In this document: positions 1 through 22,968 of the stretch, in pieces | Layout of the letters: each line of letters opens with the position of its first letter | Position numbering within the stretch: position 1 is the stretch's first letter | DNA from: Tenacibaculum adriaticum | GTDB taxonomy: Bacteria > Bacteroidota > Bacteroidia > Flavobacteriales > Flavobacteriaceae | Direction: 5' to 3' | Length of the DNA stretch: 64,000 nucleotides | NCBI RefSeq assembly: GCF_008124875.1 | Contig: NZ_VNIA01000002.1 | Span: forward strand, 310,001 to 374,000 | Position numbers and translations under genes: made by a program | The notes under the pieces: model-generated | Seen by the model: the letters and a program-made list of their open reading frames with translations, nothing else | Told to the model about the DNA's origin: nothing | The model's database searches: none

Positions 1-1209
1 TAATATCTTGTTTTGAATACTATTTTCCCATGAAGGAAAAACGCCTTTTTCTTTTGCTAAATTACGAGATGCTTCGTAACTTTTTTCTTTAATAAACTGC
101 ATAACATTTTCTCCTAAATGAACTGCTTTTTGAGAAGCATAAGGAATCTTAAGTTGAATGAGCATTTCTGCCCAACCCATTACTCCTAAACCTATTTTTC
201 TATTTGCTTGTGCTATTGATTTTATTTTTGGTAATAAATAATGATTTACAGTAATAATATTATCTAAAAAACGAATCGCTAGTTCTATAGTGGCTGCCAA
301 TTTATTCCAGTCTATTTCGAGATCATCTCCATTTTTTGATAGCATAAAAGATAAATTTATGGAACCGAGATTACAGCTTTCATAGGGTAGCAAAGGCACT
401 TCTCCACATGGGTTTGTACTTTCTATTTTTCCTAATTTTGGGGTAGGATTCGATTTATTTATAGTATCTAAAAAAATGAGTCCTGGATCGCCAGTTTTCC
501 AAGCTTCTTTAACAATACTATCCCATAATAATTTTGCTTTAACTATTTTTTCAATCTTAAGTGTTCTTGGGTTGATGAGTTCCCAATTTAAATTATGTTT
601 AACAGCCTCCATAAAATCATCCGTTATTCCTACAGATAAATTGAAGTTTTGAAGTTCTTTTTTGTCTGATTTCGAGTTAATGAAAGCTTCAATGTCTGGA
701 TGATTTATATTTAAGATACCCATATTAGCTCCTCTTCGTTTCCCCCCTTGCTTTACGTTTTCAGTAGCTGCATCATAAATTTTCATAAAAGCAATAGGCC
801 CCGAAGAAGTTCCTCCAGAAGAAGAAATAATATCATCTTTGGGTCTTAGTTTAGAAAAATTAAATCCTGTACCACCACCACTTTGATGAATAAGTGCTGC
901 ATCCTTTAAAGTACTAAAAATAGCTTCTAAACGATCTTCTACAGGAAGGACAAAACATGCACTTAACTGCCCATTTGTTACTCCGGCATTCATAAGTGTA
1001 GGAGAGTTTGGTAGAAAAACAAGCGTGCTCATCAATTTATAAAAACGTGCTTCCCATATCTTTTGATCTTTCTTTTCTGCGGAAGCAACAAACGTAGCCA
1101 CACGTTTAAACAGTTCCTCAGCCGTTTCTACTAAGCTCCCTTCATTATCCTTTAAAAGATATCTATCCTCTAAAATTTGTATAGCATTCTCTGTTAACTT
1201 GACACTCAT
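1..1209 (-). CDS. nrdJ: Adenosylcobalamin-dependent (class II) ribonucleotide reductase, N-terminal part
   Basis: Reduces ribonucleotides to deoxyribonucleotides using a cobalamin radical, so it needs no oxygen. I translated 403 uninterrupted codons from the ATG at 1207-1209 to the window edge; the C-terminus lies outside. The reading frame shows PNSPTLMNAG, SACFVLP (substrate-site cysteine), a Gly-rich HQSGGGTGFNFS segment, KQGGKRRGANMG and the active-site stretch STNPCGEVPLLPYESCN with the Asn/Cys/Glu triad of the class II and class I large-subunit fold. The Gly-rich segment and overall pattern fit class II rather than NrdA, but the C-terminal part that would confirm this is missing. It is a monocistronic start: the upstream gene pfkB ends 103 bp away and an FNR-like site lies in that gap, consistent with use under low oxygen. 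Confidence 0.9.
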   Translation of the reverse strand, partial: MSVKLTENAIQILEDRYLLKDNEGSLVETAEELFKRVATFVASAEKKDQKIWEARFYKLMSTLVFLPNSPTLMNAGVTNGQLSACFVLPVEDRLEAIFSTLKDAALIHQSGGGTGFNFSKLRPKDDIISSSGGTSSGPIAFMKIYDAATENVKQGGKRRGANMGILNINHPDIEAFINSKSDKKELQNFNLSVGITDDFMEAVKHNLNWELINPRTLKIEKIVKAKLLWDSIVKEAWKTGDPGLIFLDTINKSNPTPKLGKIESTNPCGEVPLLPYESCNLGSINLSFMLSKNGDDLEIDWNKLAATIELAIRFLDNIITVNHYLLPKIKSIAQANRKIGLGVMGWAEMLIQLKIPYASQKAVHLGENVMQFIKEKSYEASRNLAKEKGVFPSWENSIQNKIL

Positions 1210-1240
1210 GTAATATAGGTTTTAAGCAACTAAATTTCTA

Positions 1241-1283
1241 CTAGTATAGCGCATCTAACATTTGATTGCTATGATAATTATCA
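1241..1283 (-). promoter_or_regulatory. Promoter of nrdJ with FNR-like site
   Basis: On the minus strand the 12-bp palindrome TGATAATTATCA (1272-1283) is followed after exactly 23 bp by TATACTAG (1241-1248), a degenerate form of the Bacteroidota -7 box TAnnTTTG. The site centre would lie near -41 of the inferred start, the class II activator position of Crp/Fnr proteins, with a leader of about 25 nt before the nrdJ ATG. The -7 match is the weakest of the four promoters of this design in the window, but its TA is exactly in register. Confidence 0.65.
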
Positions 1284-1311
1284 GCCTTAAAATGATGGTT
1301 TTTAAGAAGCG

Positions 1312-2238
1312 TTAAATAATCATAAGTTCTAATGCTTTGTTAATATTTTTACTAGTTGCTAATTGAGTACCTTCACTCATTGTTGTGGCAACACCACAAG
1401 CTACTCCCATTCTAAGAATTTCTTTTGGCGTGTATTCCTTTTGAATTCCGTAAATAAGACCTGCGACCATACTGTCGCCAGCTCCAATAGTACTTTTTAC
1501 TGGTACAGAAGGTGTGGTTTGGTAAAACACTCCTTCTGTACAAGCTAAAAAGGCTCCTTTAGCTCCTAAAGAAACCACAACGTATTTGGCTTTTCCTTTT
1601 TCTACGAGTTCTTTAGCAAATTCTTCTTGCTCAATGTTAGATAAAAACTCTTTTCCGGCTAGTTGCGCCAATTCTCTTTGGTTAGGTTTTATTAGATAAA
1701 CAGGCTGTTCTAAGGCTTTTTTTAAATACATTCCTGAGGTATCTATAACAACTTTAGGTTCTCTAGTTGAGAATTCTTCAATTAATTGTTGATAGTAATT
1801 TGGAGGTAAATTCTTTGCTAAACTTCCACTTAACACCAAAAAATCTCCTTTTTCTAAGTTTTGAGAGAGTTCTTTTTTTATAGATACTAATTCTTCTTCA
1901 TTAAGAACATTCCCCGGCATTCCAAAACGATATTGCAGATTCGTTTTGGTATCTACCACTGCCAAATTTTCGCGGGTCCAATCTTTTATTAAAATTGAAT
2001 TGGATGTAACACCTTCGTCTTCAAGCAAAATTGTTAAGTGGGCTCCTGTATCTCCTCCCGAAGGAAATACACAATGGCTATCTAAACCAAGTCGTTGTAA
2101 CATTCTTGAAACGTTAATTCCACCACCACCTGGTTGGTATTGAATGGAGTGACATCTCAATTTACTTCCGGGAACTAAACCGTCTACTTTTGCATTTTTA
2201 TCTAATGCCGGATTCAAGGTTACTGTAATTATTTTCAT
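1312..2238 (-). CDS. pfkB: 6-phosphofructokinase 2-type (PfkB family) sugar kinase
   Basis: A ribokinase-fold (PfkB family) kinase of 308 residues that most likely phosphorylates fructose 6-phosphate to fructose 1,6-bisphosphate in the cytoplasm. The sequence follows E. coli Pfk-2 over its whole length: TLNPALD at the start, the substrate-binding PGGGGINVSRM, KDWTREN, YRFGMPG, LSGSL, KPNQREL, VVVSLGAKGA and the catalytic/anion-hole motif GAGDSM near residue 255. 1-phosphofructokinase (FruK) or tagatose-6-phosphate kinase are alternatives within the family, but no fru PTS gene is nearby. It starts 11 bp after the beta-barrel gene and looks like the last gene of the six-gene operon that begins at 7311, an unexpected partner for envelope transport genes. 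Confidence 0.85.
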   Translation of the reverse strand: MKIITVTLNPALDKNAKVDGLVPGSKLRCHSIQYQPGGGGINVSRMLQRLGLDSHCVFPSGGDTGAHLTILLEDEGVTSNSILIKDWTRENLAVVDTKTNLQYRFGMPGNVLNEEELVSIKKELSQNLEKGDFLVLSGSLAKNLPPNYYQQLIEEFSTREPKVVIDTSGMYLKKALEQPVYLIKPNQRELAQLAGKEFLSNIEQEEFAKELVEKGKAKYVVVSLGAKGAFLACTEGVFYQTTPSVPVKSTIGAGDSMVAGLIYGIQKEYTPKEILRMGVACGVATTMSEGTQLATSKNINKALELMII

Positions 2239-2249
2239 GGCTACTTAAT

Positions 2250-3398
2250 TTAAAAACTCCAACGTAGTCTTAGAAAAAGACTATTCCCCAAGGTTTTATA
2301 GTTTTCAAATTCAAAAAAAGACTGACTGGTAAAATTCAATTCCCAGTTAGTAGCGATTGAATAATCTAAACTAGGCATTAGAATTACAGCATCATTGGTT
2401 GGTGAATAAATAGTACTTAACGTTCCTTTAAAAATAGGTGTAAATTCTTTTGCCAATTGTAAAAAGCTTGAAAACTCATAGGGCATTAAGTTTTTAGCAC
2501 TCAAATTGTTGTAAACCAAAGCTCCTAATCCATTTGAAGCTTGATTTGCGGCACTATTGTATAAAATGGAACCATTGATATACAATCCTTTTTTAAATCC
2601 ATAATCAACAGAAATAGCAGCACTCAATACATTTTTTGAATTAAAGTAATCTTCATACGGAACGAAATAGCTTATTTCACCTTTAAAACCAGCGTTTTTT
2701 AAGTTTCCTGCCCAACCTGTTCCTATCATCCAATCTTTTTGATAAACACCTGTAATCAACTGAATATCGTACGACCATTTGTTAAACTTATACATGGCTG
2801 CCACAATATAATCATCAGCTGCTTTTCCTTTTTTGGCAGCAAGCTCTATTTTACTAAAATCACCCAAGTAATATTGCACTCTTACAGCATCGCTACCCGG
2901 ACGCTCTTCATAGTCAAAATCTAAAAAATTATAGGTATTAAAAATATCATTCGGATTCCAAACTAAATTCATGCCCCAGTTAACACGCTGTCTTCCTAAA
3001 GTAACATCCCAATTCCCTTTGGTATAATTCACCAAAGCTCTGTCAATAGTCGTGTTAAAGAGTGTGTTTCCGTCGTCAATTATGTTCCAAGACAAATCAA
3101 TTATACCGTTATCTTGAGAAATAAATTCAGAAAAGCCAAAGATGTTTTTTACGTTGTCGCCGTAAAACCAACGGTTTCTAAATTCTAATCGAATAGTGAT
3201 TTCATCCGAAGAAATGTATTTAAAATTGAGCCTGTTGTGTACAAAAGTGGTCCATTGTAAATCATCCAATCTATCAACAAAACTAAACTCGTGTAAGTTT
3301 TTTACGTATCCTGACAAAAACACTTTTTCATCCTTTTCCTGAGCATTGATAAGTGTTATGGTGAATAATAGCAGATATGTAAACCAACGTTTTTTCAT
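2250..3398 (-). CDS. Outer-membrane beta-barrel protein (DUF1302-like)
   Basis: A 382-residue exported protein with a signal peptide (about residues 1-19, ending LINAQ), alternating aromatic/polar strands throughout and a C-terminal phenylalanine (RLRWSF), the usual end of an outer-membrane barrel. The central TLGRQRVNWG and VWNPNDIFN motifs resemble the conserved strand and turn of DUF1302-type barrels. It is 2 bp from the ATPase gene upstream in the operon, so it is probably the outer-membrane element of the LolA/FtsX/LolD system. The substrate is unknown; export or import of a lipid or other hydrophobic compound is an inference from the partners. Confidence 0.7.
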   Translation of the reverse strand: MKKRWFTYLLLFTITLINAQEKDEKVFLSGYVKNLHEFSFVDRLDDLQWTTFVHNRLNFKYISSDEITIRLEFRNRWFYGDNVKNIFGFSEFISQDNGIIDLSWNIIDDGNTLFNTTIDRALVNYTKGNWDVTLGRQRVNWGMNLVWNPNDIFNTYNFLDFDYEERPGSDAVRVQYYLGDFSKIELAAKKGKAADDYIVAAMYKFNKWSYDIQLITGVYQKDWMIGTGWAGNLKNAGFKGEISYFVPYEDYFNSKNVLSAAISVDYGFKKGLYINGSILYNSAANQASNGLGALVYNNLSAKNLMPYEFSSFLQLAKEFTPIFKGTLSTIYSPTNDAVILMPSLDYSIATNWELNFTSQSFFEFENYKTLGNSLFLRLRWSF

Positions 3399-3400
3399 GC

Positions 3401-4099
3401 TTACGAAGGAGTTTGTTCTACATCTGAAGCTATTTTACCGTCAACCAAAGTAATTACACGACGTGCTTTTCTAATTACACGCTGATCATGAGTAGAAAAC
3501 AAAAACGTAATCTTCTCTTCTTTGTTGAGCTTTGCCATAATATTTAATAAGTTTTCAGCCGATTTTGAGTCGAGATTTGCTGTTGGTTCATCTGCTAATA
3601 CAATTTTAGGCTTTGAAGCCAAGGCTCTGGCAACCGCTACCCGTTGTTGTTGTCCACCCGACAATTGCCCTGGTTTACTGTTGATTTTATCTTCAAGTCC
3701 AACTTCTTTCAATAAAGTGAGTACGCGTTCTTCTCGTTCTTTTTTAGGCATTTTTTGTAGTTGTAATACAAATCCAACATTTTCTTTGGCGGTAAGTACC
3801 GGAATTAAGTTAAACGACTGAAATACAAACCCGATATTATGCAATCTAAAATCTATTAACTTATTTTCCGGTAATTCTGTAATTTCTACACCATCTATAA
3901 TTACGCTTCCTGCTGTTGGTTCATCCAATCCACCCATCATATTCAATAAGGTAGATTTACCCGAACCAGAAGGTCCAACCAACGCCACAAACTCCCCTTC
4001 TTCAATATGCACATGCACATTTTGAACCGCATGTACCGGAATTGTTTTCGGGTTGAATGTTTTACTCACATTATGTGCATCTATAATCGTTTTTGCCAT
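3401..4099 (-). CDS. LolD/MacB-type ABC transporter ATP-binding protein
   Basis: A 232-residue ATPase with Walker A GPSGSGKST (about residues 42-50), Q-loop FVFQSFNLIP, signature LSGGQQQR, Walker B VLADEPT and switch His in STHD. The pattern matches the LolD/FtsE/MacB subgroup, which powers mechanotransmission by FtsX-type permeases rather than substrate passage through the membrane. It lies between the permease at 4104-5321 (4-bp gap) and the beta-barrel gene (1-bp gap), so it serves the two permeases of this operon. It is unlikely to be the housekeeping LolD, because the cluster carries dedicated LolA-like and barrel genes. Confidence 0.9.
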   Translation of the reverse strand: MAKTIIDAHNVSKTFNPKTIPVHAVQNVHVHIEEGEFVALVGPSGSGKSTLLNMMGGLDEPTAGSVIIDGVEITELPENKLIDFRLHNIGFVFQSFNLIPVLTAKENVGFVLQLQKMPKKEREERVLTLLKEVGLEDKINSKPGQLSGGQQQRVAVARALASKPKIVLADEPTANLDSKSAENLLNIMAKLNKEEKITFLFSTHDQRVIRKARRVITLVDGKIASDVEQTPS

Positions 4100-7673: not shown

Positions 7674-10600
7674 TTATTCTAAAATGATTTTTTTTGTTAC
7701 TTCAATCACATCTGAGTTTAATTTCACTATATAAATACCAGTAGAAAATGTTGGTAAATTTATTGCCGTTTTACCATTGGACTTAATAGAAGTTTTTACC
7801 AATTCTTTACCTGATAAAGAGAAAACAGTAAGTTGAGCACTTCCCTGTAAACCTGCAATGGTAATTTCTTTTTTTGCAGATTTATAGACAGTAATGTTTT
7901 TAAGATTTTCAATTATATCTTTATTACTTAAGACTTGTGATTTGGTGTGTAAATAAAAGCGTCCTATTCCATTTATCTGTGTATTTAAAGTAATTGTATA
8001 ATTATTTGTAGGTTCATCCAAAAGAATAAATAACCCCGCTTCTTTATCTTCTAAAAACACATGTATTCCTTCAGGTAGATTAATTGATTCTGTTGAAAAC
8101 TTAATATCTGTACCTTCGGTAGCATTAATTCCAATAGGAATAATCATATTTTCATAATCACTATCAGGCAAACATTGTAGAGCAAAATTTACACCTTCAC
8201 TATCATTTACTAAATGAGTATATATATCGAAACTAGTAGTAACCCCATTAAATGTTGCCGCATCATAACCCGGATCTAGACCTTTTGTGGTACTTGTAAT
8301 GTATTTAATATCTGTTGATTTGGTTGTTGTACTATTTGTAATATTTAATTTAATTTCTGGTCTATCATTTGTAGATCTAAAAAACAGATCTCCTTCTTGA
8401 GTACTTTGCATTGTTTCCTTAAAATTGAGTATGGTACCTCCATTTATAGAGTTTACAAAAAATCCTTGACCTGGTGCAATATAGGTAGCGTTGGACGCAT
8501 GATTAATAATATCATACGTACTTGTAGCAGGGTTCCAGTAATAAAGTGCAACATTTGCAGGGTCTAAGTGTTCTGCATTGATAGTTAAAAAATTATTCGT
8601 TGCATCTGCCCCACTATTAGCATTGATAAAGGAAGGATATGGATTTCCTATCAAATTCCATTTACTACTTGTACCTTCTGTAATTGATAAAGGAACATCA
8701 GATGTTATCATGTTTCCCGTAAAACCTAAGCTAGAACTTCCTGTTGTTTTTATAGAATATCCAACTCCTGAATTAAACGTATGCGAATCTCCCGCTTGAA
8801 AATATTCCCAAACTAGCCCATCATTATTATATGTACTAATCCCTCTATTATTTCCAGTACCAAAAGCTATACTATGGGTACTTACCCAAGAATCATTATA
8901 TATCTGACCCACTACTGGGGCTGATATTAAGCGCCAGTTATCATCCTTTATATATCTGTTATAAGTAATGTTTCCTGTAGCAGTACCTAAAACACGTAAA
9001 GAACCACTAGACGTAGCGTTTGATTGTATTGTAAGCATACCGTTTTGAGTAAGATCTCCCGTAACAGTTAAGCTTTTACCACTATTAATATTTAATGATC
9101 CATCTACTCTTAAATTATCTATGGTAATATTAGTATCTATAGTGGCTATCTTGTCTGTTGGAATCTCAGTATCATCTGTTGGCAAAGGCACGCTTAATAG
9201 ACTCCAATTTGTAGGAACTGACCAATTACCATTGGCTGCAGTAAATATATTTAAAGATGTCGTTGTTTCATACCATGCTATAGTATTATTATCAGCAGAA
9301 GCTGATAAAATATCTAAATCACCATCACCATCTATATCTCCAACACAAACGGTATACACTCCGTCTGCAGTATTAGTTATTACAGTTTCATTAAAAGTGG
9401 GGTTTGATTCGCCATTATTTTCATACCATGTTACGGTATCACTAGTACGTATATTTGATAAGATATCTAAATGTTCATCTCCGTTTATATCCGCTAAAAT
9501 TATACTACTAGCAGTGGGTGATGTGTTGTTGATCATTATTTTAGAAAAGCTGGGATCAGCAGCACCATCATTTTTATACCAAATAATTTCACCATCAGAA
9601 TAAGAGGTAGATAGGATATCTAAATTACCATCTTTATCAACATCCCCTACACTAACTCTGTATGGGCCATTATCTGTATTAGATATTACTATTTTAGTAA
9701 AAACAGGGTTTACAGCTCCATTATTTTCATACCAAGCAACAGTGTCACCATAAAAAGAAGTTGATATAATATCTATATCACCATCGCCATCTAAATCACC
9801 GGCAGAAACCCCGTAAGTTTCATCTTCAGTATCGCTTACAATTCTTTTAGTAAAAGTAGGGTTAGTGTCTCCATCATTCTGGTACCAAGCAACAGTGTCA
9901 TCATCACGAGAAGCTGCTAAGATATCTAAATCACCATCACCATCCATATCATAAAGGTTTGCTTCAAATACTCCATCTGCCGTATTCGTTACAATCATTT
10001 TAGTAAATGTAGGATTAGTGGCTCCATCATTTGCATACCAAGCAATAGTATCATCAAGATATGATCCTGCCAATATATCTAAATCACCATCATTATCTAC
10101 ATCTCCCACACTTACGCTAGAGGCTCCGTCTGCAGTATCTGTCACGATCATTTTAGTAAAAGTAGGATTAGTGGTTCCATCATTTGCATACCAAGCAATA
10201 GTATCATCGTTAAGAGAAGCTGATAAAATATCTAAATCACCATCGCCATCTACATCTCCCACACTTATATTATATGCTCCGTCTGCAGTATCAGTAATTA
10301 CTTTTTTTATAAAACTCACTGGAGCGGGAACTCTAGCTGTGACAATGGTAAAGCTAAATGTTATAGGACTTGTAAAAGGAATTCCTATACTTTCCAGCTT
10401 AGTAGTAATAGTTACGGTAATAATTTCTCCTGGTTTAAAATTATTGTCGGGATTAAATGTAATTGTATTGGTATCTCCTCCTGTAAAAACACCTTCAATG
10501 ATTCCTGTTTGAGATCCTATTACTACAATGTTAGCTGAAGTTACTGAACCTGCATCAATAACAGAATCAAAAATAAGCTCAATATCGGTATCTGCTTCAA

Positions 10601-13600
10601 TATTATTGGATGTAGCAGCTGGACTTGAGCTTATCAATTCAGGTTGAGCAACTGTAAATTGAAATACTGTAGGATTAGCTAAAGTAAATCCACTACTCTC
10701 TAAGCCTGCTGTAGTTGTAACTGTTATTGTTTCTCCAGGTATAAAATTTGTTGTAGGATTAAAAGTAATGACATTATGTCCTCCACCCGTAAAAATTCCA
10801 GTAATGTTACCAGATTGAGATCCTGTAACTTCTATGTTTGCACTAGTAACTGTAGCTGCATCTATAGGAGCACTAAAAGTAAGTACAAGGTTAGCATCTT
10901 TTAAAACATTTATTGATTCTGCAATGGGAAGTGTATGGGTTAGAAATACACTGTTTTGGGTTTCATACCATGCTATAGTATCATCAGTACCAGAAGCTGA
11001 TAAAATATCTAAATCACCATCACCATCTATATCTCCAACACATACGGCATATACTGTGTTTGCAGTATTAGTTATTACAGTTTCATTAAAAGTGGGGTTT
11101 GATTCGCCATTATTTTCATACCATGTTACGGTATTACTAGTGCGTATATTTGATAAAATATCTAAGTTTTCATCTCCGTTTATATCCGCTAAAATTATAG
11201 TACTAGCAGTGGGTGATGTGTTGTTGATGATTATTTTAGAAAAGCTGGGATCAGCAGCACCATCATTTTTATACCAAATAATTTCACCATCATAATAAGA
11301 GGTAGATAGGATATCTAAATTACCATCATTATCTACATCTCCTACACTAACTTTGAATGGGCCATCATCTGTATTAGATATTACTATTTTAGTAAAAACA
11401 GGGTTTACAGCTCCATTATTTTCATACCAAGCAACGGTGTCACCGTAAAAAGAAGTTGATATGATATCTATATCACCATCGCCATCTAAATCACCGGCAC
11501 AAGCCCCGTAAGTTCCGTCTGCGGTTTCTGTTATGATTCTTTTAGTGAAAGTAGGATTAGTGGCTCCGTCATTCTCATACCAAGCAACAGTATCATCATC
11601 ACGAGAAGCTGCTAAGATATCTAAATCACCATCACCATCTATATCATAAAGGTTTGCTTCAAATACCCCATCTGCCGTATTCGTTACAATCATTTTTGTA
11701 AACGTAGGATTAGTGGTTCCATCATTTGCATACCAAGCAACAGTGTCATCATCACGAGAAGCTGCTAAGATATCTAAATCACCATCATTATCTACATCTC
11801 CCACACTTACGCTAGAGGCTCCGTCTGCAGTATCTGTCACGATTATTTTTGTAAAAGTAGGATCGGCACCTCCATCATTTGCATACCAAGCAATAGTATC
11901 ATCGTTAAGAGAAGCTGATAAAACATCTAAATCACCATCGCCATCTACATCTCCCACACTTACATCATATGCTCTGTCTGCAGTATCAGTAATTATTTTT
12001 TTTGTAAAACTCACAGGAGCGGGAACTCTAGCTGTGGCAATGGTAAAGCTAAATGTTATAGGACTTGTCAAAGGAATTCCTATACTTTCCGCCTTAGTAG
12101 TAATTGTTACGGTAATAATTTCACCTGGTTTAAAATTAGTTGTAGGATTAAATGTTATTGTATTCGTATCTCCTCCCGTAAAAACACCTTCAATGATTCC
12201 TGTTTGTGAACCTGTTATCATAATAGTATTGGGTGTTACTGTAGCATTATCTATAACAGAATCAAAAATAAGCTCAATATCCGTGTCTGCTGCAATATTA
12301 TTTGATGTTGCAGCGGGACTTGAACTTATTAATTTAGATTTAGCAACCGTAAATTGAAATACTGTAGGATTAGCTAAAGTAAATCCACTACTCTCTAAGC
12401 CTGCTGTAGTTGTAACCGTTATTATTTCTCCAGGTATAAAATTTGTTGTAGGATTAAAAGTAATGACATTATGTCCTCCACCCGTAAAAATTCCAGTAAT
12501 GTTGCCAGATTGCGATCCTGTAACTTCTATGTTTGTACTAGTAACTGTAGTTGCATCTATAGGAGCACTAAAAGTAAGTATAATATTAGCATCTTCTAAA
12601 ACATTTCTTGATTCTGCAATGGGAAGTGTATTAGTTAGAAATATATTATTTTGTGTCTCGTGCCAAGTTATATTAACATTATTATTTATAGAAGATGCTA
12701 CTATATCTATATCACCATCTGCATCCATATCCCCTACATTTATTGCAGTAGCTTGAAGAGTAGTAGTACTTACCTCAATTGTAGTAAAAACAGGGTTTTC
12801 TGCCCCGTCATTTATATACCAAGTAATAACGTTATTTTTATGGTTACCCACTACAATATCTAAATTTCCATCACCATTCATATCTGCTGAAACTATATTA
12901 GTAGGTTTATCAATAATTCCACTGATGATTATTTGAGTAAATGTAGGATTGGTTTCACCGTCATTTTCATACCAATGTACTTTATTATCAAGAGAAGATG
13001 ATACAATATCTAAATCACCATCACCGTCTAGATCACCTACAGCTAAGCCACCGGGCCAATCAACTGCGTTAGTAATGGGGTTTTTAGTAAAAGAAGGGTT
13101 TACTTCACCGTCATTTTCATACCAATCTATTTTATCATTCACATCTGCAGTTATAATATCTAAGTCACCATCACTATCTAGATCACCAACAGTAATAGCG
13201 GTAGCTCCATTAAGAGTACTAGTTAATAATCGTTTAGCAAAACTAGGAGTAGCTGCTCCATCATTTTCATACCAATATATACGACGAGAAAGAAGAGAAC
13301 CCGATAAGATGTCTAAATCACCATCACTATCAATATCTCCAACCGTTAAAATTCTTGGTGAACTAGCAGTACTGGTTACTATTCTTTGTGTAAAAGTAGG
13401 GTCTGCAGCTCCGTCATTATCAAACCAGAGTATAGTACTATCAGATTCAGATACTGCTAAAATGTCTAAATCACCATCGCCATCTACATCTCCTATTTTT
13501 GCGCTTCTAATAGCAATGATACTATCGCTTATTAGATTGGTTGTAAAAGTAGGATCCGAGGCCCCATCATTTTCATACCATATTAGAGTACTATCATTGG

Positions 13601-14087
13601 ATGCAGAGGATACCATATCTAAGTCACCATCACCATCTATATCTCCTGTAACTACACTATCAACTCTATTTATATTGCTACTAACTATATGTTCTGTTGG
13701 AACTATAGGTACAGGTACCGAAGTTGTAACAACGGTAAAATGAAAGATATTGGAGGTAATTAAAGGAATTCCGCCACTTTCTAAGCCTCTGGTAGCTGCT
13801 ACGGTAATCAGCTCCCCTGATTTAAAATTATTATCAGGATTAAATGTAATTGTATTGGTATCTCCTCCCGTAAAAACACCTTCAATAGTTCCTGTTTGAG
13901 ATCCTGTTACTACAATGTTTGCTGAAGTTATAGAGCCAGCATCTATAGTAGTATTAAAAAAGAGCACAATATTAGTGTCAGCGGCAACATTAATCTCTTG
14001 TGCTATTGGGTTTGTTGTAATTAAATCTTGCCCTCTTACAAAGCTGACCGTTAGCAATAATAAAAGAAAAAGGTAGTTCGTTTTCAT
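7674..14087 (-). CDS. Giant T9SS-secreted protein with three seven-bladed FG-GAP/VCBS propellers
   Basis: A 2137-residue surface or secreted protein. Order: signal peptide (1-19), one SbsA/Big_5-type Ig-like domain (about 21-120), propeller 1 (about 132-480), two Ig-like domains (about 481-690), propeller 2 (about 692-1045), two Ig-like domains, propeller 3 (about 1257-1612), a region of about 450 residues of unclear fold, and a type A T9SS C-terminal sorting domain (about 2062-2137, with ITVYKSAKKEITI and FSTGIYIVKL). Each propeller has seven repeats of about 51 residues with a calcium-binding DxDGDGDLD loop and a WYxNDG strand, 21 in all. Propellers 2 and 3 with their preceding Ig pair are near-identical duplicates. 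Likely an adhesin or carbohydrate-binding surface protein; the ligand is unknown. Confidence 0.85.
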   Translation of the reverse strand: MKTNYLFLLLLLTVSFVRGQDLITTNPIAQEINVAADTNIVLFFNTTIDAGSITSANIVVTGSQTGTIEGVFTGGDTNTITFNPDNNFKSGELITVAATRGLESGGIPLITSNIFHFTVVTTSVPVPIVPTEHIVSSNINRVDSVVTGDIDGDGDLDMVSSASNDSTLIWYENDGASDPTFTTNLISDSIIAIRSAKIGDVDGDGDLDILAVSESDSTILWFDNDGAADPTFTQRIVTSTASSPRILTVGDIDSDGDLDILSGSLLSRRIYWYENDGAATPSFAKRLLTSTLNGATAITVGDLDSDGDLDIITADVNDKIDWYENDGEVNPSFTKNPITNAVDWPGGLAVGDLDGDGDLDIVSSSLDNKVHWYENDGETNPTFTQIIISGIIDKPTNIVSADMNGDGNLDIVVGNHKNNVITWYINDGAENPVFTTIEVSTTTLQATAINVGDMDADGDIDIVASSINNNVNITWHETQNNIFLTNTLPIAESRNVLEDANIILTFSAPIDATTVTSTNIEVTGSQSGNITGIFTGGGHNVITFNPTTNFIPGEIITVTTTAGLESSGFTLANPTVFQFTVAKSKLISSSPAATSNNIAADTDIELIFDSVIDNATVTPNTIMITGSQTGIIEGVFTGGDTNTITFNPTTNFKPGEIITVTITTKAESIGIPLTSPITFSFTIATARVPAPVSFTKKIITDTADRAYDVSVGDVDGDGDLDVLSASLNDDTIAWYANDGGADPTFTKIIVTDTADGASSVSVGDVDNDGDLDILAASRDDDTVAWYANDGTTNPTFTKMIVTNTADGVFEANLYDIDGDGDLDILAASRDDDTVAWYENDGATNPTFTKRIITETADGTYGACAGDLDGDGDIDIISTSFYGDTVAWYENNGAVNPVFTKIVISNTDDGPFKVSVGDVDNDGNLDILSTSYYDGEIIWYKNDGAADPSFSKIIINNTSPTASTIILADINGDENLDILSNIRTSNTVTWYENNGESNPTFNETVITNTANTVYAVCVGDIDGDGDLDILSASGTDDTIAWYETQNSVFLTHTLPIAESINVLKDANLVLTFSAPIDAATVTSANIEVTGSQSGNITGIFTGGGHNVITFNPTTNFIPGETITVTTTAGLESSGFTLANPTVFQFTVAQPELISSSPAATSNNIEADTDIELIFDSVIDAGSVTSANIVVIGSQTGIIEGVFTGGDTNTITFNPDNNFKPGEIITVTITTKLESIGIPFTSPITFSFTIVTARVPAPVSFIKKVITDTADGAYNISVGDVDGDGDLDILSASLNDDTIAWYANDGTTNPTFTKMIVTDTADGASSVSVGDVDNDGDLDILAGSYLDDTIAWYANDGATNPTFTKMIVTNTADGVFEANLYDMDGDGDLDILAASRDDDTVAWYQNDGDTNPTFTKRIVSDTEDETYGVSAGDLDGDGDIDIISTSFYGDTVAWYENNGAVNPVFTKIVISNTDNGPYRVSVGDVDKDGNLDILSTSYSDGEIIWYKNDGAADPSFSKIMINNTSPTASSIILADINGDEHLDILSNIRTSDTVTWYENNGESNPTFNETVITNTADGVYTVCVGDIDGDGDLDILSASADNNTIAWYETTTSLNIFTAANGNWSVPTNWSLLSVPLPTDDTEIPTDKIATIDTNITIDNLRVDGSLNINSGKSLTVTGDLTQNGMLTIQSNATSSGSLRVLGTATGNITYNRYIKDDNWRLISAPVVGQIYNDSWVSTHSIAFGTGNNRGISTYNNDGLVWEYFQAGDSHTFNSGVGYSIKTTGSSSLGFTGNMITSDVPLSITEGTSSKWNLIGNPYPSFINANSGADATNNFLTINAEHLDPANVALYYWNPATSTYDIINHASNATYIAPGQGFFVNSINGGTILNFKETMQSTQEGDLFFRSTNDRPEIKLNITNSTTTKSTDIKYITSTTKGLDPGYDAATFNGVTTSFDIYTHLVNDSEGVNFALQCLPDSDYENMIIPIGINATEGTDIKFSTESINLPEGIHVFLEDKEAGLFILLDEPTNNYTITLNTQINGIGRFYLHTKSQVLSNKDIIENLKNITVYKSAKKEITIAGLQGSAQLTVFSLSGKELVKTSIKSNGKTAINLPTFSTGIYIVKLNSDVIEVTKKIILE
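9266..12655. repeat. 1695-bp tandem duplication within the propeller gene
   Basis: Two adjacent copies (about 9266-10960 and 10961-12655) are offset by exactly 1695 bp, or 565 codons. I checked the register at several points: 9541/11236, 10321/12016, 10611/12306 and 10810/12505. Each copy encodes two Ig-like domains plus one seven-bladed propeller. Long blocks are identical or nearly so, so the duplication is recent or kept similar by recombination. Within each copy there is a shorter period of about 153 bp, one blade. Confidence 0.85.
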
Positions 14088-15581: not shown

Positions 15582-16028
15582 CTATATTTTTTGAACTTTA
15601 ACAGCGTTCATTCCTTTTAAACCTTTTTCTAGCTCAAAAGATACTTTATCATTCTCTGTAATTTCGTCTATAATACCACTAACGTGTGTAAAATATTTTT
15701 CTTGGTTTTCTGCATCTATAATAAACCCAAATCCTTTAGAAGAATCGAAAAACGACACTTTTCCTTTACGTACAGGATCTTCTTCCTCCATGTCTTCCTT
15801 TTTAGGAATACCAATAACAATGCTCTCTGCGTCTACCTTCACTTTCATTGTTGGATCTGGCGGAGTATCAGTTAAATTACCATTATGGTCTACATAAGCA
15901 AACTGAATACCTTGTCCAGGAATTTTCTCTGCTTTTAGAGCTTCTTTTTTCTTTCTTTTCTCTTCACGTTTTTTTAAACGCTTCTTTTCTTTTTCACTTT
16001 TATTAAATGTTTGTTGCGATTTTGCCAT
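15582..16028 (-). CDS. Cold-shock-domain protein with basic N-terminal extension
   Basis: A 148-residue cytoplasmic nucleic-acid-binding protein. Residues about 1-35 are very Lys/Glu-rich (KSEKEKKRLKKREEKRKKK), probably helical. The C-terminal 65 residues form the cold-shock domain, starting GKVSFFDSSKGFGFI (RNP1) and with YFTHVS in place of the usual VFVHFS (RNP2). Extended CSD proteins of this type are common in Flavobacteriia and differ from the about 65-residue CspA. The 218-bp gap upstream is room for a long 5' leader, as cold-shock genes often have, but I see no defined element there. Confidence 0.9.
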   Translation of the reverse strand: MAKSQQTFNKSEKEKKRLKKREEKRKKKEALKAEKIPGQGIQFAYVDHNGNLTDTPPDPTMKVKVDAESIVIGIPKKEDMEEEDPVRKGKVSFFDSSKGFGFIIDAENQEKYFTHVSGIIDEITENDKVSFELEKGLKGMNAVKVQKI

Positions 16029-16246
16029 TCGTTTGTTTTAAATAAAATTATACTTGGTCGTCTAAAAAGAAAGTTGGAAGTACTAAACGAGTGGTTACGA
16101 AAAGATAATCGAAGATTTATCTGAAAATTTTGTCAGAGTCTTTATTTTTATAAGTAAATGCCCTTCTCCTTAAACTATTTGCAAAGTTACTATTATTTTT
16201 TTAATTTTAAAAGAGAATTTATACCGTCATATCTAGAAAAAAGGAA

Positions 16247-16630
16247 TTAATGTTGATAACACCTTCCATTTGCATTCTTTGTTTTTCGCTTACAACGAAT
16301 TCTAGATTTTGTTTTACCTGTACATCGTGTAGCTATTGTTTTTTTTATTGATGATGTTGTACTTCTCTTATTCGAATTTGTTAAAGAATTTGAAGTAGTA
16401 TTTGATGTTTTATAGGAAGTTATTAAGGAAATAGGTTTACAAACCTTACAAGCTATACATCCTCTCTTTTTTGCTTCTTTTAATTTTATCTCTTTTTTTG
16501 AATATTTTAAATAACGACAAGATTTTTTATGATACTTCTCTCCTGTTTTAGTTGTAAAAACTGTTTGAGCAATACTATTACTAGTAAAAACTATTGAAAT
16601 AACAATTAAGAATACCTTTAACGTATGCAT
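16247..16630 (-). CDS. Exported Cys-rich protein with DUF5763-like C-terminus
   Basis: A 127-residue protein with a signal peptide (about residues 1-21, ending NSIAQ). Residues about 23-66 contain YHKKSCRYLKYSKK and CIACKVCKP, a putative metal-binding cysteine cluster like those that accompany small exported nucleases. The C-terminus RCTGKTKSRIRCKRKTKNAN then GRCYQH resembles DUF5763, a short Cys/His motif. A Ser/Thr-rich linker joins the two parts. It starts 4 bp after the thermonuclease gene and is likely cotranscribed with it, suggesting a DNA-related role outside the cytoplasm. Confidence 0.6.
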   Translation of the reverse strand: MHTLKVFLIVISIVFTSNSIAQTVFTTKTGEKYHKKSCRYLKYSKKEIKLKEAKKRGCIACKVCKPISLITSYKTSNTTSNSLTNSNKRSTTSSIKKTIATRCTGKTKSRIRCKRKTKNANGRCYQH

Positions 16631-16634
16631 ATGG

Positions 16635-17168
16635 TTATTTTTTTCTTTTCTTATAGTCTCTCCATATCCAAGGTGCTATTGGTTTTTTATCTTGCCATAA
16701 ACCAACTTTTTTTATTCTAGCAGTATCTTCTAATGATTGTAGTTGTTTATCTTTAGAATATTTTACATAATGCCATGCAAAACCATTTTTGACTAATTCG
16801 TAATTTAAATTTAAAGAGTCGTTATACTTTACATTAGCTATAAAACGTCGATACCTGTCTTTTTTTAAAACCTGTATCTCAACTATTTTACTAAAAATAG
16901 CTTCTGATATAAATTGTTTAGCTTTTGTAGAAAAAGGTTGCTTTTTTTCTGGACAATCTATGTTCGCTAAACGCACTTTAATTAAAGTAGAATCTTGGGT
17001 TAACAACTTAAAAGTATCACCATCCATAATACCAACGACTTTGCCTGTAATAATTGTGTCTTTAATTTTAAACAATAACTCTTCTGGAGTATTCTCTAAA
17101 CTTCTATTATGACTAAATGAGAACAGAATTAATACTATCCATATTGAGTAAAACCAAATTTTGGACAT
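16635..17168 (-). CDS. Exported thermonuclease-family (SNase) protein
   Basis: A 177-residue staphylococcal-nuclease-fold protein with an N-terminal hydrophobic segment (about residues 4-18) that should export or anchor it. Catalytic positions are preserved: DGDT (Asp near 51) for calcium, Arg66 and Glu74 in VRLANIDCPE, and Arg108 in DRYRRF (usually DRYGR). The C-terminal GLWQ motif is also typical. It would cut DNA or RNA in the periplasm or outside the cell. It lies 54 bp after the PH-domain gene and 4 bp before the Cys-rich gene. Confidence 0.88.
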   Translation of the reverse strand: MSKIWFYSIWIVLILFSFSHNRSLENTPEELLFKIKDTIITGKVVGIMDGDTFKLLTQDSTLIKVRLANIDCPEKKQPFSTKAKQFISEAIFSKIVEIQVLKKDRYRRFIANVKYNDSLNLNYELVKNGFAWHYVKYSKDKQLQSLEDTARIKKVGLWQDKKPIAPWIWRDYKKRKK

Positions 17169-17222
17169 AAATTATATTTTTACATTCTATTAGAATAAAT
17201 GTAGTTTAAATAAAAAGAGACC

Positions 17223-17600
17223 TTACATAACTTTAGAAGCCAAGTATTTTTGAACATCATAAACATTAATGCTTTTATTAAATTTTTTACTCACAGATGG
17301 AATGTTTTCACTAGAAATCCAAATTTTTAATTCTGCATCCAAGTCGAAAGTACCTGAAGTTTCTAAAGAAAACCTTGATATACTTTTATAAGGCATAGAT
17401 TTATATTCTACTTTACTACCTGTTAACCCTTGTACATCAATTAAAACAAGCCTCTTATTAGTAAACATAAACACATCTCTAAAAAGTATAAAACCAAGCT
17501 CAATTTGCTCATCACCTAATAATAGGCGTCCATATTTTTCGTTTAATTTATCGGAAGAAACTTCACTAGCGTTTCCAAGTATTTTATTTAATAGTCCCAT
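17223..17600 (-). CDS. Bacterial PH-domain protein
   Basis: A 125-residue cytoplasmic protein resembling the bacterial pleckstrin-homology family (bPH_1, YvbH-like): a short helical start MGLLNKILGNASEV, then LLLGDEQIELGFILFRDVFMFTNKRLVLIDV and the strand pattern of the barrel, ending with a helix. Members are predicted scaffolds of unknown ligand. It lies 29 bp after the DUF1883 gene. No transmembrane segment is visible. Confidence 0.75.
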   Translation of the reverse strand: MGLLNKILGNASEVSSDKLNEKYGRLLLGDEQIELGFILFRDVFMFTNKRLVLIDVQGLTGSKVEYKSMPYKSISRFSLETSGTFDLDAELKIWISSENIPSVSKKFNKSINVYDVQKYLASKVM

Positions 17601-17629
17601 ATTATATTTTTATTTAAAGTCAAATTACT

Positions 17630-17893
17630 TTATAAAACTCTAACGCTAGATTTAACATTACCAGAATATCCTCCTAAATCAATTGTTATATACCATCTCC
17701 CATAATTAGGAATGCTTATATTATACGGAGATCTAGTAACGTGGCCTCCATAATATTGATGCTTTGTTCCTCTTTTATAACGTTGAAAATTTAGACTATT
17801 CATCAGTTTAACATTTGCAGAATTTCCATGAAGAGTAATTTCTACTACTTCCCCTCCATTTAATTCACCTAAATCATAATGTTGAAATTTCAT
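17630..17893 (-). CDS. DUF1883 domain protein
   Basis: An 87-residue protein that matches DUF1883 along its length: MKFQHYDLGELNGGEVVEITL, NVKLMNSLNFQRYKRG, YYGGHVTRSPYNISIPNYG and WYITIDLGGYSG. In other bacteria DUF1883 occurs alone or fused to TIR domains, which hints at a sensing role in signalling or defence, but nothing is proven. It starts 12 bp after the nuclease-like gene and lies 29 bp before the PH-domain gene, so the three are likely one transcript. Confidence 0.8.
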   Translation of the reverse strand: MKFQHYDLGELNGGEVVEITLHGNSANVKLMNSLNFQRYKRGTKHQYYGGHVTRSPYNISIPNYGRWYITIDLGGYSGNVKSSVRVL

Positions 17894-17905
17894 TTTTTTT
17901 GAATT

Positions 17906-18970
17906 TTAATTATTGCTTATTACATTATAAAAATCAACCGTTTGCAACAATTGCTCTTCAAATTGATAAATATCATCGACAGATTCTATCAACTCTCTAG
18001 TTTCATTCTTGTTTTCATCAAATAACCCTAAATATTTATTTCCTCCATTTAAATGAAGTCTACATAAAGGTTTTCGATTATTATCATCTAACAATATCCC
18101 GAAATAAGATTGTGTATCACGATGAGAAATTCTATTAATTAATAGTTTTCTCCTAAGAATAGCTACTACAATTCTAAAACCTTCTAATTCTTCTTCTGTT
18201 GTGATTATTTTACTTTCCTCTTCTTCAATTTCTATAGCTTCTTCTTGTTGCTTTTCAGATTCTTTGTTAAGTGCAGCATTTAAACGATCATTTACTTTCT
18301 CGCTAACAACCTGGTTAAAAGCTTTTTGAACTAACTCTGTGAACTCATTCATTACTTTTTCTGTTAGCCGACCTGAATAAACTCTATTGGCAAATAATCT
18401 TACAAATTCAGAAGATGAACTAGTTAATTCATTTGAAATACATTTCCTTATCTCTTTTGTATACTTTAAAGAGCTTGCATTATTAACTATTTTATCTACA
18501 TCAAAATTTGACTTATGAAACTTACCTATTTCATGAACATCGTTATCTTTTATTTTGGTAATGTCAAACTCTAAAAATGGTTTTTCATCCATTTTATTTG
18601 TTTGTTCTAAATCTGTATAAAACCGATATTGAATTCCATTCGTTAATAGAGCAAAACGGGTTTTTGTAACATGAAAATACCTAAATAGTTGTGAATTATG
18701 ATTATCTAAACCCTCCTTCCAATTCTTACATTCTATAATTAAAATTGGTATCTCATTTTGAAAAATAGCATAATCTACTTTTTCTCCTTTTTTAAGGCCT
18801 ATATCTGCTATAAACTCAGGAACAACCTCTAATGGATTAAACGTATCATAACCTAATGCATTTATAAACGGTAATACAAATGCATGTTTGGTAGATTCTT
18901 CAGTTTCTATTTTGTCTTTTAGCTGATTTATTTTATCAGCTATTGCTTTAAGTTTGCTTTGGAGTTCCAT
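17906..18970 (-). CDS. Orphan type I restriction HsdR N-terminal-like (PD-(D/E)xK) protein
   Basis: A 354-residue protein whose first about 150 residues look like the HSDR_N nuclease domain: helix, FVLPFINALGYD, VVPEFIADIG, then the PD-(D/E)xK core Asp66 (KVDYAI) and Glu80-Cys-Lys82 (LIIECKNW), followed by LLTNGIQYRFYTDL. There is no helicase domain, so it is not HsdR itself. Residues about 205-260 are helical and Glu-rich, and the C-terminal about 100 residues form a separate domain (RISHRDTQSYFGILLDD, CRLHLNGGNKYLGLF). Such stand-alone proteins are annotated as type I restriction enzyme-like and may act in defence or on foreign DNA. The gene follows the KTSC-like gene by 5 bp. Confidence 0.75.
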   Translation of the reverse strand: MELQSKLKAIADKINQLKDKIETEESTKHAFVLPFINALGYDTFNPLEVVPEFIADIGLKKGEKVDYAIFQNEIPILIIECKNWKEGLDNHNSQLFRYFHVTKTRFALLTNGIQYRFYTDLEQTNKMDEKPFLEFDITKIKDNDVHEIGKFHKSNFDVDKIVNNASSLKYTKEIRKCISNELTSSSSEFVRLFANRVYSGRLTEKVMNEFTELVQKAFNQVVSEKVNDRLNAALNKESEKQQEEAIEIEEEESKIITTEEELEGFRIVVAILRRKLLINRISHRDTQSYFGILLDDNNRKPLCRLHLNGGNKYLGLFDENKNETRELIESVDDIYQFEEQLLQTVDFYNVISNN

Positions 18971-18975
18971 AGTTA

Positions 18976-19338
18976 TTAATTACAATTACATTCATAGTCT
19001 TTTATATATTCATGAAAACGTTCACCGTAGGAATCTGAATCGTTATAATCACCATATTGAAAGTTATTCCAATTTTGAGAAGGAATTCCGCAATAAACAT
19101 ATGCCTTTGGAGAATAGTCATATTCATTTCTTTTAATTTTTGCAATTACATATATTTTATAATCATACTCATAAGCAGTTACCTCATATAACCATGAAGA
19201 ACCCAAAGTATAATTAGCTAATGATGTTTTATAGTATCCTTTAGTTTTAATAAACTCTTGCAAGTCTTCACAATTTACTTCTTGAGAGAAGGAAAAATTG
19301 ACACTCAACATTAAAAATATAATACCAAACTTTTTCAT
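18976..19338 (-). CDS. Exported KTSC-like small protein
   Basis: A 120-residue protein with a signal peptide (about residues 1-18, ending FSFSQ). The remainder has the order seen in KTSC domains: SSWLYEVTAYEYDYKIYVIA, an aromatic strand KAYVYCGIPSQNWNNF, then DSYGERFHEYI. Three cysteines (CEDL, YVYC and CNCN region) could form disulfides. The match is by eye and divergent. Its ATG overlaps the stop of the upstream gene by one base. Function unknown. Confidence 0.6.
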   Translation of the reverse strand: MKKFGIIFLMLSVNFSFSQEVNCEDLQEFIKTKGYYKTSLANYTLGSSWLYEVTAYEYDYKIYVIAKIKRNEYDYSPKAYVYCGIPSQNWNNFQYGDYNDSDSYGERFHEYIKDYECNCN

Positions 19339-19877
19339 TATTTTAATTCCTCTATTTTTTCCTTACCTGATTTAAACATGTTTTCAAATACTTTATAATC
19401 TTTTGTAAATACAGTATTATCACTACCATACTTCTCAAGGTTTATATACCAAGTTATTTTTCCTTTACTTACATAATAACCAATCTCAAAACCGTCTTCA
19501 GTTATGAACTTATTTTCTAAATAATCAGACAGAGTATTCATATCTGTTTCTGTTTGAGTTTTTAAGTTTAATAATGCTTTTTGTACTTCTAATAAATCCT
19601 CATAAGCAATTGAGGCCGTTTTATCACCATACTTCCCTTTTTTTGAAATTTGAAAAAACATCTTTTCCTCACTACCACTAATGATTTTTCTTATTTTTGA
19701 TTCTGTTACAGCATACGATAACTTAACATTTGGTAGTTTATAATCTTCGAATTTTAGAATTGTTCCTGTTTTGGATACAAATTCTTGCATTTTAGATTTC
19801 TGCTCTTTTTGCTCTTGGCAAAAAACACCAGAAGTCATTAATAAAATTATTAGTGTAATAATTGAATGTTTATTCAT
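19338..19877 (-). CDS. Exported protein of unknown function
   Basis: A 179-residue protein, taking the ATG at 19877 because it gives a clean signal peptide (MNKHSIITLIILLMTSGVFC then QEQ); a longer form from 19904 would place polar residues before it. The mature part has a Lys/Gln-rich start and the strands ILKFEDYKLPNVKLSY, EEKMFFQISKKGKYGDKTA and ITWYINLEKYG. No family is recognised. It is the first gene of the tight run that continues through the KTSC-like, nuclease-like, DUF1883 and PH-domain genes. Confidence 0.65.
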   Translation of the reverse strand: MNKHSIITLIILLMTSGVFCQEQKEQKSKMQEFVSKTGTILKFEDYKLPNVKLSYAVTESKIRKIISGSEEKMFFQISKKGKYGDKTASIAYEDLLEVQKALLNLKTQTETDMNTLSDYLENKFITEDGFEIGYYVSKGKITWYINLEKYGSDNTVFTKDYKVFENMFKSGKEKIEELK

Positions 19878-19924
19878 AATTAGTAGTATTGTTGAGTTTA
19901 ACACTTCAAACTTAAACTACTTAA

Positions 19925-19962
19925 AAAACAAAACCTTACGGAATACCATAAGGTTTTGTTTT
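19925..19962. terminator. Bidirectional-looking terminator hairpin
   Basis: Arms AAAACAAAACCTTA (19925-19938) and TAAGGTTTTGTTTT (19949-19962) form a perfect 14-bp stem with a 10-nt loop and A/T tails. It sits between the DUF4468 gene and the unknown exported gene, and would stop minus-strand transcription coming from the former. Confidence 0.85.
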
Positions 19963-19982
19963 ATTACATGAAAAATAAGTCA

Positions 19983-20463
19983 TTACCAATTATCATTTTC
20001 TGAATCAAGTTGCATTTTTGAAGCAAAACTTAATACTAATTTTTCAGCAGAAGCTTTAAATAATTCGGGGGTAAAACCTATTTTAGTCCCCATGTAGTTT
20101 GTTACTGTAAATTTGTTAATAGGTTCAATTTCTATTTTGGCTGCTTTGTCCTTTACTCTCAATGTAATCATTGCAAAATAAGATAGAGTTTCGGGAGAAT
20201 ATTGTGTAGCTGTTTTCCCTGGATACATCATATATTTTCCCTTTATGATACCTGCTTCTTTATCTACAAATTGAATGACACTTTCTGCATTACCAAAAGC
20301 TTCTACCATCCACTCATTGGCCTTTATATAGTTGGAGCTTTTTTTTTGACTCTAATTGAATTGTTTTGATAATAGGATTTCCTTCATATGTCAAAGTTTT
20401 TACAGAAACACATGAAAAATTTAAAACAATTAAAATTGCAAGAACTACTTTTTTAAATTTCAT
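19983..20463 (-). pseudogene. DUF4468-like lipoprotein gene with a frameshift at an A9 tract
   Basis: From the ATG at 20463 the frame reads a lipoprotein signal (MKFKKVVLAILIVLNFSC) and continues to LESKKK, then hits a stop (KGQ*). The rest of the gene, EAFGNAESVIQFVDKEAGII through to the stop at 19983, lies in the next frame. The frames meet at nine A residues (minus strand; + positions about 20339-20347): with eight A the protein would read ESKKSSNYIKANEWMVEAFG without a break. The product resembles the DUF4468 family of Bacteroidota lipoproteins. The extra A may be a real mutation, a phase-variable or slippage site, or a sequencing error. A separate 108-residue product from the internal ATG at 20309 would lack any export signal. 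Confidence 0.75.
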
Positions 20464-20569
20464 AATAAATTTATTTTAATATTATTGTTAGTTGTTTAAC
20501 AAAAATAAATTCATTAATAAAGTTATCCTTACGGTTTACCACAAAGACAATAAATAATAAAAAAGCAAA

Positions 20570-21235
20570 TTATATTAAGCCTAAATCTTTAACAATTGCT
20601 ACTAAGTGTATAGCGTTATTGGCTTTAAATTGAATACGAAGTTTGTTAAGCCGTTTTTCTACAGAACTTAAACTACTTGGTGAGATGTTATTATCTTTAA
20701 GATGTATACTTATATCTTCTTGCGATAAACCATTAGATAATAGTTTTACCAATTCGATATCGTAATCGTTTATTTCTAAATCTGTCTTATGGCTTATAGC
20801 TTGCGCTACTTGCGGAGATAAATAGTTTTTGTTATCATAAACCAATTGAATTGCCTTTTCTAATTCTACCAAACCGTGCCTACCTTTGCATACATACGCA
20901 TCTGTATGATAGGTATTCATCAACAATCGTACTTTTTGAAGACGATCTTCTACGGAATACGCTATAATTTTAAGCTCAGGGTGTTCTTGCTTTAAAGCTC
21001 TGATTAAATCTTCACCAGAAGGGTATTTTTGTTCTCGATGATCTGCTTTAAAAGATAAGTCCGTTATTAATAAATCATAGGGAGCTTCATCTAATATTGC
21101 TCTTTTAATTTTAAGATAGGCATCATCACAATATTGTACTTGTTGTACATTATTGATACCTAAGTTATCTAATACTGACAATACTCCTTGATTGATGCTT
21201 CCTAAATCATCTGAAATTAAAACCTTTGTAAACAT
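20570..21235 (-). CDS. LuxR/NarL-type response regulator
   Basis: A 221-residue two-component regulator. The receiver domain (about residues 1-130) has Asp9/Asp10 and the phosphoacceptor Asp59 in LLITDLSF, with the conserved Lys in YVCKGRHG. The C-terminal part (about 155-221) is a LuxR-type helix-turn-helix: DIELVKLLSNGLSQEDISIH then SVEKRLNKLRIQF. It lies 3 bp after the kinase gene, so the two form a cognate pair. DNA targets are not shown by the sequence; candidates are the paired TACGTA site at 14146-14161 or motifs in the 23.2-23.5 kb gap. Confidence 0.9.
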   Translation of the reverse strand: MFTKVLISDDLGSINQGVLSVLDNLGINNVQQVQYCDDAYLKIKRAILDEAPYDLLITDLSFKADHREQKYPSGEDLIRALKQEHPELKIIAYSVEDRLQKVRLLMNTYHTDAYVCKGRHGLVELEKAIQLVYDNKNYLSPQVAQAISHKTDLEINDYDIELVKLLSNGLSQEDISIHLKDNNISPSSLSSVEKRLNKLRIQFKANNAIHLVAIVKDLGLI

Positions 21236-21238
21236 AGT

Positions 21239-22915: not shown

Positions 22916-22968
22916 TCCTCTAAAATACTAACTAATTTTAAGTTAGATAATATTCATTCTTTACTTTT

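Follow-up and report, generated by a model that had tools for sequence, protein, structure and literature searches.

Tandem duplication of a 1695-bp Ig-Ig-propeller cassette in a large, probably secreted protein of Tenacibaculum adriaticum

A long gene of Tenacibaculum adriaticum contains, head to tail, two closely similar copies of a block encoding two Ig domains and a propeller, and the question was raised how this pair had arisen: was the whole block copied once and recently, or have two older copies been kept alike by exchange of sequence? The gene lies in a 64,000-nucleotide stretch of contig NZ_VNIA01000002.1 (assembly GCF_008124875.1, positions 310,001 to 374,000), which is called the window here. 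A preliminary description of this DNA had proposed an exact tandem duplication, recent expansion or continuing gene conversion, and gain or loss of whole units that would alter surface length or antigenicity.

Gene and domain layout

The gene was read as a single open frame on the minus strand with a product of 2137 aa, and the frame was intact across both copies, designated A and B (Table 1). A signal-like start is followed by Ig-P7 (unit N, where P7 denotes seven FG-GAP/VCBS propeller blades), Ig-Ig-P7 (copy A), Ig-Ig-P7 (copy B) and a C-terminal region of ~530 aa with a T9SS tail. Pfam matches above cut-off were obtained for FG-GAP_3 (PF13517, E 9.2e-144, 21 stretches), FG-GAP (PF01839, E 1.1e-32, 12 stretches) and Big_5 (PF13205, E 2e-49, 167.1 bits against a cut-off of 23.6, five stretches), and the T9SS sorting domain exceeded the curated cut-offs of both PF18962 (29.2 bits against 27) and TIGR04183 of NCBIfam (32.3 against 23). 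With a pattern looser than DxDxDG, 21 DxDxDG-like motifs were found in three sets of seven, spaced 50-51 aa apart; in the cation loop of copies A and B, positions 1 and 5 were D in 7/7 blades and position 3 was D or N. The propeller of unit N shared 47% protein identity with that of copy A; this older third unit and the minus-strand orientation had been overlooked in the preliminary description. Judged from its sequence, this multidomain protein is probably secreted, and export followed by surface retention or release is its most likely fate given the T9SS tail; binding of cations and of carbohydrates or proteins would be its function by analogy with the domain type.

Table 1. Features of the gene and of its repeated units in the window (sub-domain borders are approximate)
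Feature	Position	Strand	Basis or remark
Gene: Big_5 x5, FG-GAP propeller x3, T9SS type A tail	7674..14087	-	ORF and profile matches
Signal-peptide-like N-terminus, residues 1-20	14028..14087	-	translation read by eye
Unit N: one Big_5 Ig and seven FG-GAP blades, older/divergent	12663..14024	-	motifs, spacing, alignment, tree
Matching tract in N-terminal Ig, codons 46-87	13827..13952	-	likely exchange partner of the Ig2 tract of copy B
Copy A	10968..12662	-	self-alignment, motifs, predicted structure
Copy A, Ig1	~12342-12662	-	
Copy A, Ig2	~12018-12332	-	
Copy A, seven blades	~10959-12017	-	
Copy A, blade 2 stretch	11733..11786	-	up to 100% over 51 nt to blade 3 sequences vs 78% to copy B blade 2
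Copy B	9273..10967	-	self-alignment, motifs
Copy B, Ig1	~10647-10967	-	
Copy B, Ig2	~10323-10637	-	
Conversion-like tract, Ig2 of copy B, codons 1175-1216	10440..10565	-	nearer to N-terminal Ig than copy A is
Copy B, seven blades	~9273-10322	-	
Copy B, blade 1 end	10149..10208	-	up to 96% to blade 2 sequences vs 84-88% to copy A in-register partner
C-terminal region, ~530 aa	7677..9272	-	common to many other genus proteins
Por_Secre_tail, T9SS type A sorting domain	7683..7874	-	Pfam PF18962, TIGR04183

Copy A was modelled with AlphaFold2 from an alignment of three sequences (copy A and two other units). The mean pLDDT was 71. Of the 35 ten-residue blocks that make up the propeller part, 30 scored 82-92 and the lowest 70, and the predicted strands there numbered 28, that is 7 x 4; the Ig part was poorly predicted. 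The best PDB matches by Foldseek included KICSTOR and BBSome subunits and aldos-2-ulose dehydratase (4a7y), all of them propeller proteins. A phmmer search of the PDB sequences gave one weak match, the hemolysin-related protein 6mlt (E 7.4e-4).

The C-terminal region was also found at 45-48% identity in three further proteins encoded by this genome (G000:C2:408234-410327, G000:C3:179571-183738); these match that region and not the propeller part, so it looks like a reusable module. A consensus scan gave 38 promoter sites (36.3 in shuffled sequences) and 2 terminator sites (3.4 in shuffled sequences). Elsewhere in the window, positions 16001-24000 have a low G+C content (27-29%, against 34-36% on the flanks). 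The genes there include a nuclease-like one, one for an HSDR_N protein and, beside a response-regulator-like gene, one for a TPR protein that carries a histidine-kinase-type ATPase domain; this segment may be acquired DNA.

The tandem copies and their relative age

When positions 9266-10960 were aligned with 10961-12655, the offset remained constant at 1695 bp (565 codons), head to tail, in frame and without any indel. Each copy starts directly after the final blade of a propeller and closes with the final blade of the propeller that follows. Both the in-frame alignment and the profile matches bore out the Ig-Ig-propeller content and the 565-codon offset given in the preliminary description. 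The word "exact" held for the period; for the sequence it was ruled out, as 139 of the 1695 bases differ (1556 identical, 91.8%) and no identical run exceeds 79 bp, the upper end of six exact blocks of 63-79 bp. Among ungapped offsets of 30-3999 within the gene, the best 600-bp window reached 94% at 1695, and the next-best offsets (1542, 153 and 1848), which are echoes of the blade register, reached 72-74% in their best 600 bp; the duplication is thus far beyond chance. A DNA search of the genome itself for a near-identical copy elsewhere, with 40 of 50 candidates scored, returned only this locus and two matches to the N-terminal unit. The genome is a draft of 21 contigs, in which an identical extra copy could have been collapsed.

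A draft of this kind and a repetitive region would also suit an assembly artefact or a mixture of strains. Such an origin is highly improbable, since the copies differ at 139 of 1695 bases with no identical run longer than 79 bp, the unit lies inside a 794-kb contig and the frame runs intact through both.

Over the copies, dS was 0.175 and dN 0.065 (Nei-Gojobori), giving a dN/dS of ~0.37, and protein identity was 87.6%; within codons 476-1040, 142 differences were counted, of which 69 fall on third codon positions, 42 on first and 31 on second ones. When all 21 blades were compared with one another, blade k of copy A paired best with blade k of copy B in 7/7 cases, at 87-95% identity, against 50-79% among the blades within copy A. 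A protein tree was built of 21 propellers, 17 from 11 proteins of the genus and four from the MAG protein L025; there the second and third propellers of the window were sisters with support of 100/100, and the first joined them at 92/89. Five genes of the flanking operon, compared with their orthologues in the congener G029, showed dS values of 0.86-1.38. The A/B pair is therefore either much younger than the split from G029 or was homogenised after it. The G029 stretch itself retains the operon, and no match to the giant gene turned up in it. The "recent expansion" of the preliminary description is accordingly supported as recent relative to the species, and the synonymous divergence of the copies, proposed there as a check, did not turn out high. 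As read from the sequence, a single copying of the whole block seems to have been followed by drift and by exchange of small patches. Without the patches the A/B dS was 0.119, a value biased low because the highly divergent stretches were removed post hoc.

Patchy differences between the copies

The best-scoring indel-free stretch covered 1720 bp (9265-10984 against 10960-12679), and its 146 differences were clustered: the variance of counts in 20-codon windows was 18.6 against 5.3 expected, a value reached in 0 of 10,000 permutations. The densest cluster coincided with Ig2, where a tract of copy B (Table 1) was closer to the N-terminal Ig (dS 0.35, dN 0.067) than copy A was (dS 0.49, dN 0.24). 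On its flanks, the A/B dS was 0.24 and either copy stood at dS 1.1-1.3 from unit N. Because copy B matches unit N in this tract, simple divergence fails as an explanation there. The contrast gave p <= 3.5e-4 in scan tests at five window sizes, with 20,000 permutations each, and p 0.054 in a stricter run test on informative sites. Two further patches, in blade 2 of copy A and at the end of blade 1 of copy B, resembled neighbouring blades more than their in-register partners. All these patches were picked after inspection of the whole unit, one being strong and two weaker. Short non-allelic conversion would be the economical reading of them, though constraint that is relaxed locally might contribute to the clustering of differences. 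Of the "continuing gene conversion" proposed earlier, conversion is thus supported in part, by the clustering and by the N-like Ig2 tract with its run-test p of 0.054, and its continuation found no support.

The same data bear on an older duplication whose copies A and B have stayed alike chiefly because they go on converting each other (concerted evolution), in which case dS would underestimate the age. Low-dS stretches (~0.05) do alternate with high-dS ones (up to 0.45) along the copies, the clustering of differences is significant, and the four propellers of two adjacent genes in G013 form an unresolved group in the tree, as would be expected of such a process. However, the longest run free of A/B differences was 26 codons, no longer than permutation gives (p 0.17). 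Neither this process nor a single duplication can be dated, because an orthologue with both copies was found in neither the genus (166 genomes) nor the family (397 genomes) search, with few candidates scored per genome. We regard concerted evolution as rather unlikely, and a single copying of the block followed by short exchanges is preferred.

Substitutions between A and B had no preference for loops, as 18/178 strand positions and 22/166 loop positions differed (p 0.40), and hence there was no sign of diversifying selection on the binding loops. The cation-loop aspartates and the W-Y of each blade were unchanged between the copies.

Relatives, known systems and a proposed mechanism

Copy A was searched in 166 genomes of the genus with at most eight candidates scored per genome, and at least 76 of these genomes, the window's own included, matched at E <=0.001. 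The best other genomes among the matches listed, G106 and G166, reached 46-49% identity to copy A, and outside the window's own gene identity never exceeded 51% among the matches listed for the 166 genomes. Copy B, searched in 397 genomes of the family with three candidates scored in each, reached E 1e-60 in three genomes besides the window's own among the candidates scored. A scan of genome contigs with the whole protein gave two distant loci only.

The regions examined were 15 from the genus, those of G106, G166 and G029, and four from other genera. Thirteen proteins from frames with at least three motifs, the window's included, made up the tree sample; one of them, G118b, has no propeller-length cluster, and L025 contributed four clusters, its shorter fifth one being set aside. 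Frames in L024, L064, L065, L069, L072 and L073, mostly irregular, and a 272-aa fragment of G106 were left out, and L068, L071 and L075 have no frame with three or more motifs. Three propellers were counted in the window's protein, two in each of the two adjacent genes of G013, two in G061, two in G178, and one each in G106, G166, G009, G118a, G074 and G089. The first propellers of G061 and G178 grouped together (91/87), as did their second ones (100/99), and this grouping by position points to an older duplication there. In the 11 selected genus proteins, the 17 propeller-length FG-GAP clusters spanned 298-321 aa, 14 with seven motifs and three with six. Among other genera, G553 has one propeller, the four clusters of G563, from the same family, are spaced at 458-472 aa and show 7, 7, 6 and 6 motifs, and G308 encodes two proteins, one with two seven-motif clusters and the other with one, plus stray motifs; the clusters of L025 have 4 to 8 motifs. 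From these counts, propeller number varies in the sample while, L025 apart, blade number hardly does.

Some of these loci have features of their own. The two adjacent G013 genes (L061, 1005-17003, minus strand) each encode ~2515 aa, and their four propellers share 80-87% DNA identity in a patchy manner, as if the genes exchange sequence. In G106 (L057, 12857-14379, minus strand), short frames of 176 and 272 aa lie beside the 1900-aa propeller protein and look as if a second Ig-propeller gene had been broken up. In G178 (L074, 3059-9997), the two propellers are followed by repeats of a 240-bp HYR-like unit, whose shifted copies have dS ~0.5 and dN ~0.06, values suggestive of an old array under purifying selection. 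A propeller duplication was rejected as the source of this protein's strongest far repeat, for that repeat follows the 240-bp period of the HYR-like part.

Related proteins with 1, 2 or 4 propellers imply that whole-propeller cassettes have been gained or lost over evolutionary time, and copy number was not constant in the relatives, which are homologues and not clear orthologues. The earlier claim that whole units are gained or lost is thus supported across species and genera only, and an effect on antigenicity, also proposed there, found no support in the data. A stronger form of it would be a phase- or antigen-variable surface protein with fast gain and loss of units among isolates. The repeats of 1695 bp are in frame, exact blocks of 63-79 bp are long enough for homologous recombination, and unit numbers differ between species and genera, all of which would suit such variation; against it, a dS of 0.175 means that both copies persisted long enough to diverge, and we consider it improbable.

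Bacterial integrin-type (FG-GAP/Cage) propellers with seven blades and one Ca-binding motif per blade, including tandem ones, have been described (PMC3192720), and the portions of that paper cited here limit the role of its bacterial proteins to the cytoplasm. The present protein likewise has seven FG-GAP blades with a DxDxDG-like loop in each; it differs from what those portions describe in its three propellers, the Big_5 Ig pairs between them, the measured Ig-Ig-propeller duplication and the T9SS tail. With propellers of the VCBS superfamily, as presented in the relevant parts of PMC8023676 and PMC9218822, it shares DxDxDG in loop AB, a conserved W downstream (in loop CD by position only) and repetition at the level of blades. 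In those parts, new propellers are amplified from single blades within one propeller, blade numbers vary (PMC9218822) and the propellers are tied to carbohydrate and protein binding, whereas here a whole propeller with two Ig domains was copied and each set has seven blades. According to the cited portions of all three papers, propellers of this type bind cations, and their ligands are often carbohydrates or proteins. The literature search gave nothing direct on proteins of the present kind beyond general propeller papers.

The 2478-aa frame of G563, with its four propellers, is similar in having tandem propellers, and its best far identity was 85% in 300 nt at an offset of 1413 bp; from the spacing of its propeller starts, about one linker domain would fit between propellers, where the present protein has two Ig domains. 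In G106 and G166, too, a Big_5 Ig precedes a seven-bladed propeller and the C-terminal region is related, at 40-42% identity over ~1000 aa; they differ in having a single cassette and other N-terminal parts.

The reading that we favour, with a probability of about 0.75, is that an ancestral cassette of a T9SS-secreted protein, composed of an Ig domain and a seven-bladed propeller, was amplified by in-frame unequal recombination. A single duplication event would have produced the A/B pair, and short non-allelic conversion tracts between paralogous modules would account for the patches. Closure of the seven-bladed ring may select against the many possible exchanges in the 153-bp blade register, so that the visible gains would be whole cassettes and steps of 153 bp would go unseen. 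Such a filter is not universal, given the 4 to 8 motifs of L025 and the varying blade numbers in the cited part of PMC9218822. The protein would act extracellularly as a long chain of Ca-binding propellers with sugars or proteins as ligands, to which additional cassettes may add length and avidity.

Extended to the family, and here we are tentative to the point of doubt, whole Ig-propeller cassettes (~470-565 codons) might be the recombining unit of giant secreted proteins, amplified repeatedly and independently and subject to short-tract non-allelic conversion, with ring closure keeping the blades at seven and propeller number left free, which would yield a strain-variable, extendable chain of ligand-binding discs. 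What was found is ordinary modular expansion and not a new kind of system, and it seems a real but fairly ordinary case of the modular growth of surface proteins. It has little practical weight, as tandem bacterial propellers are already known from the cited part of PMC3192720. It is a clean example of a larger cassette being copied with the number of its smaller repeats, the 153-bp blades, kept at seven, and in a repeat protein of this kind one could gauge selection against broken rings relative to the recombination able to make them.
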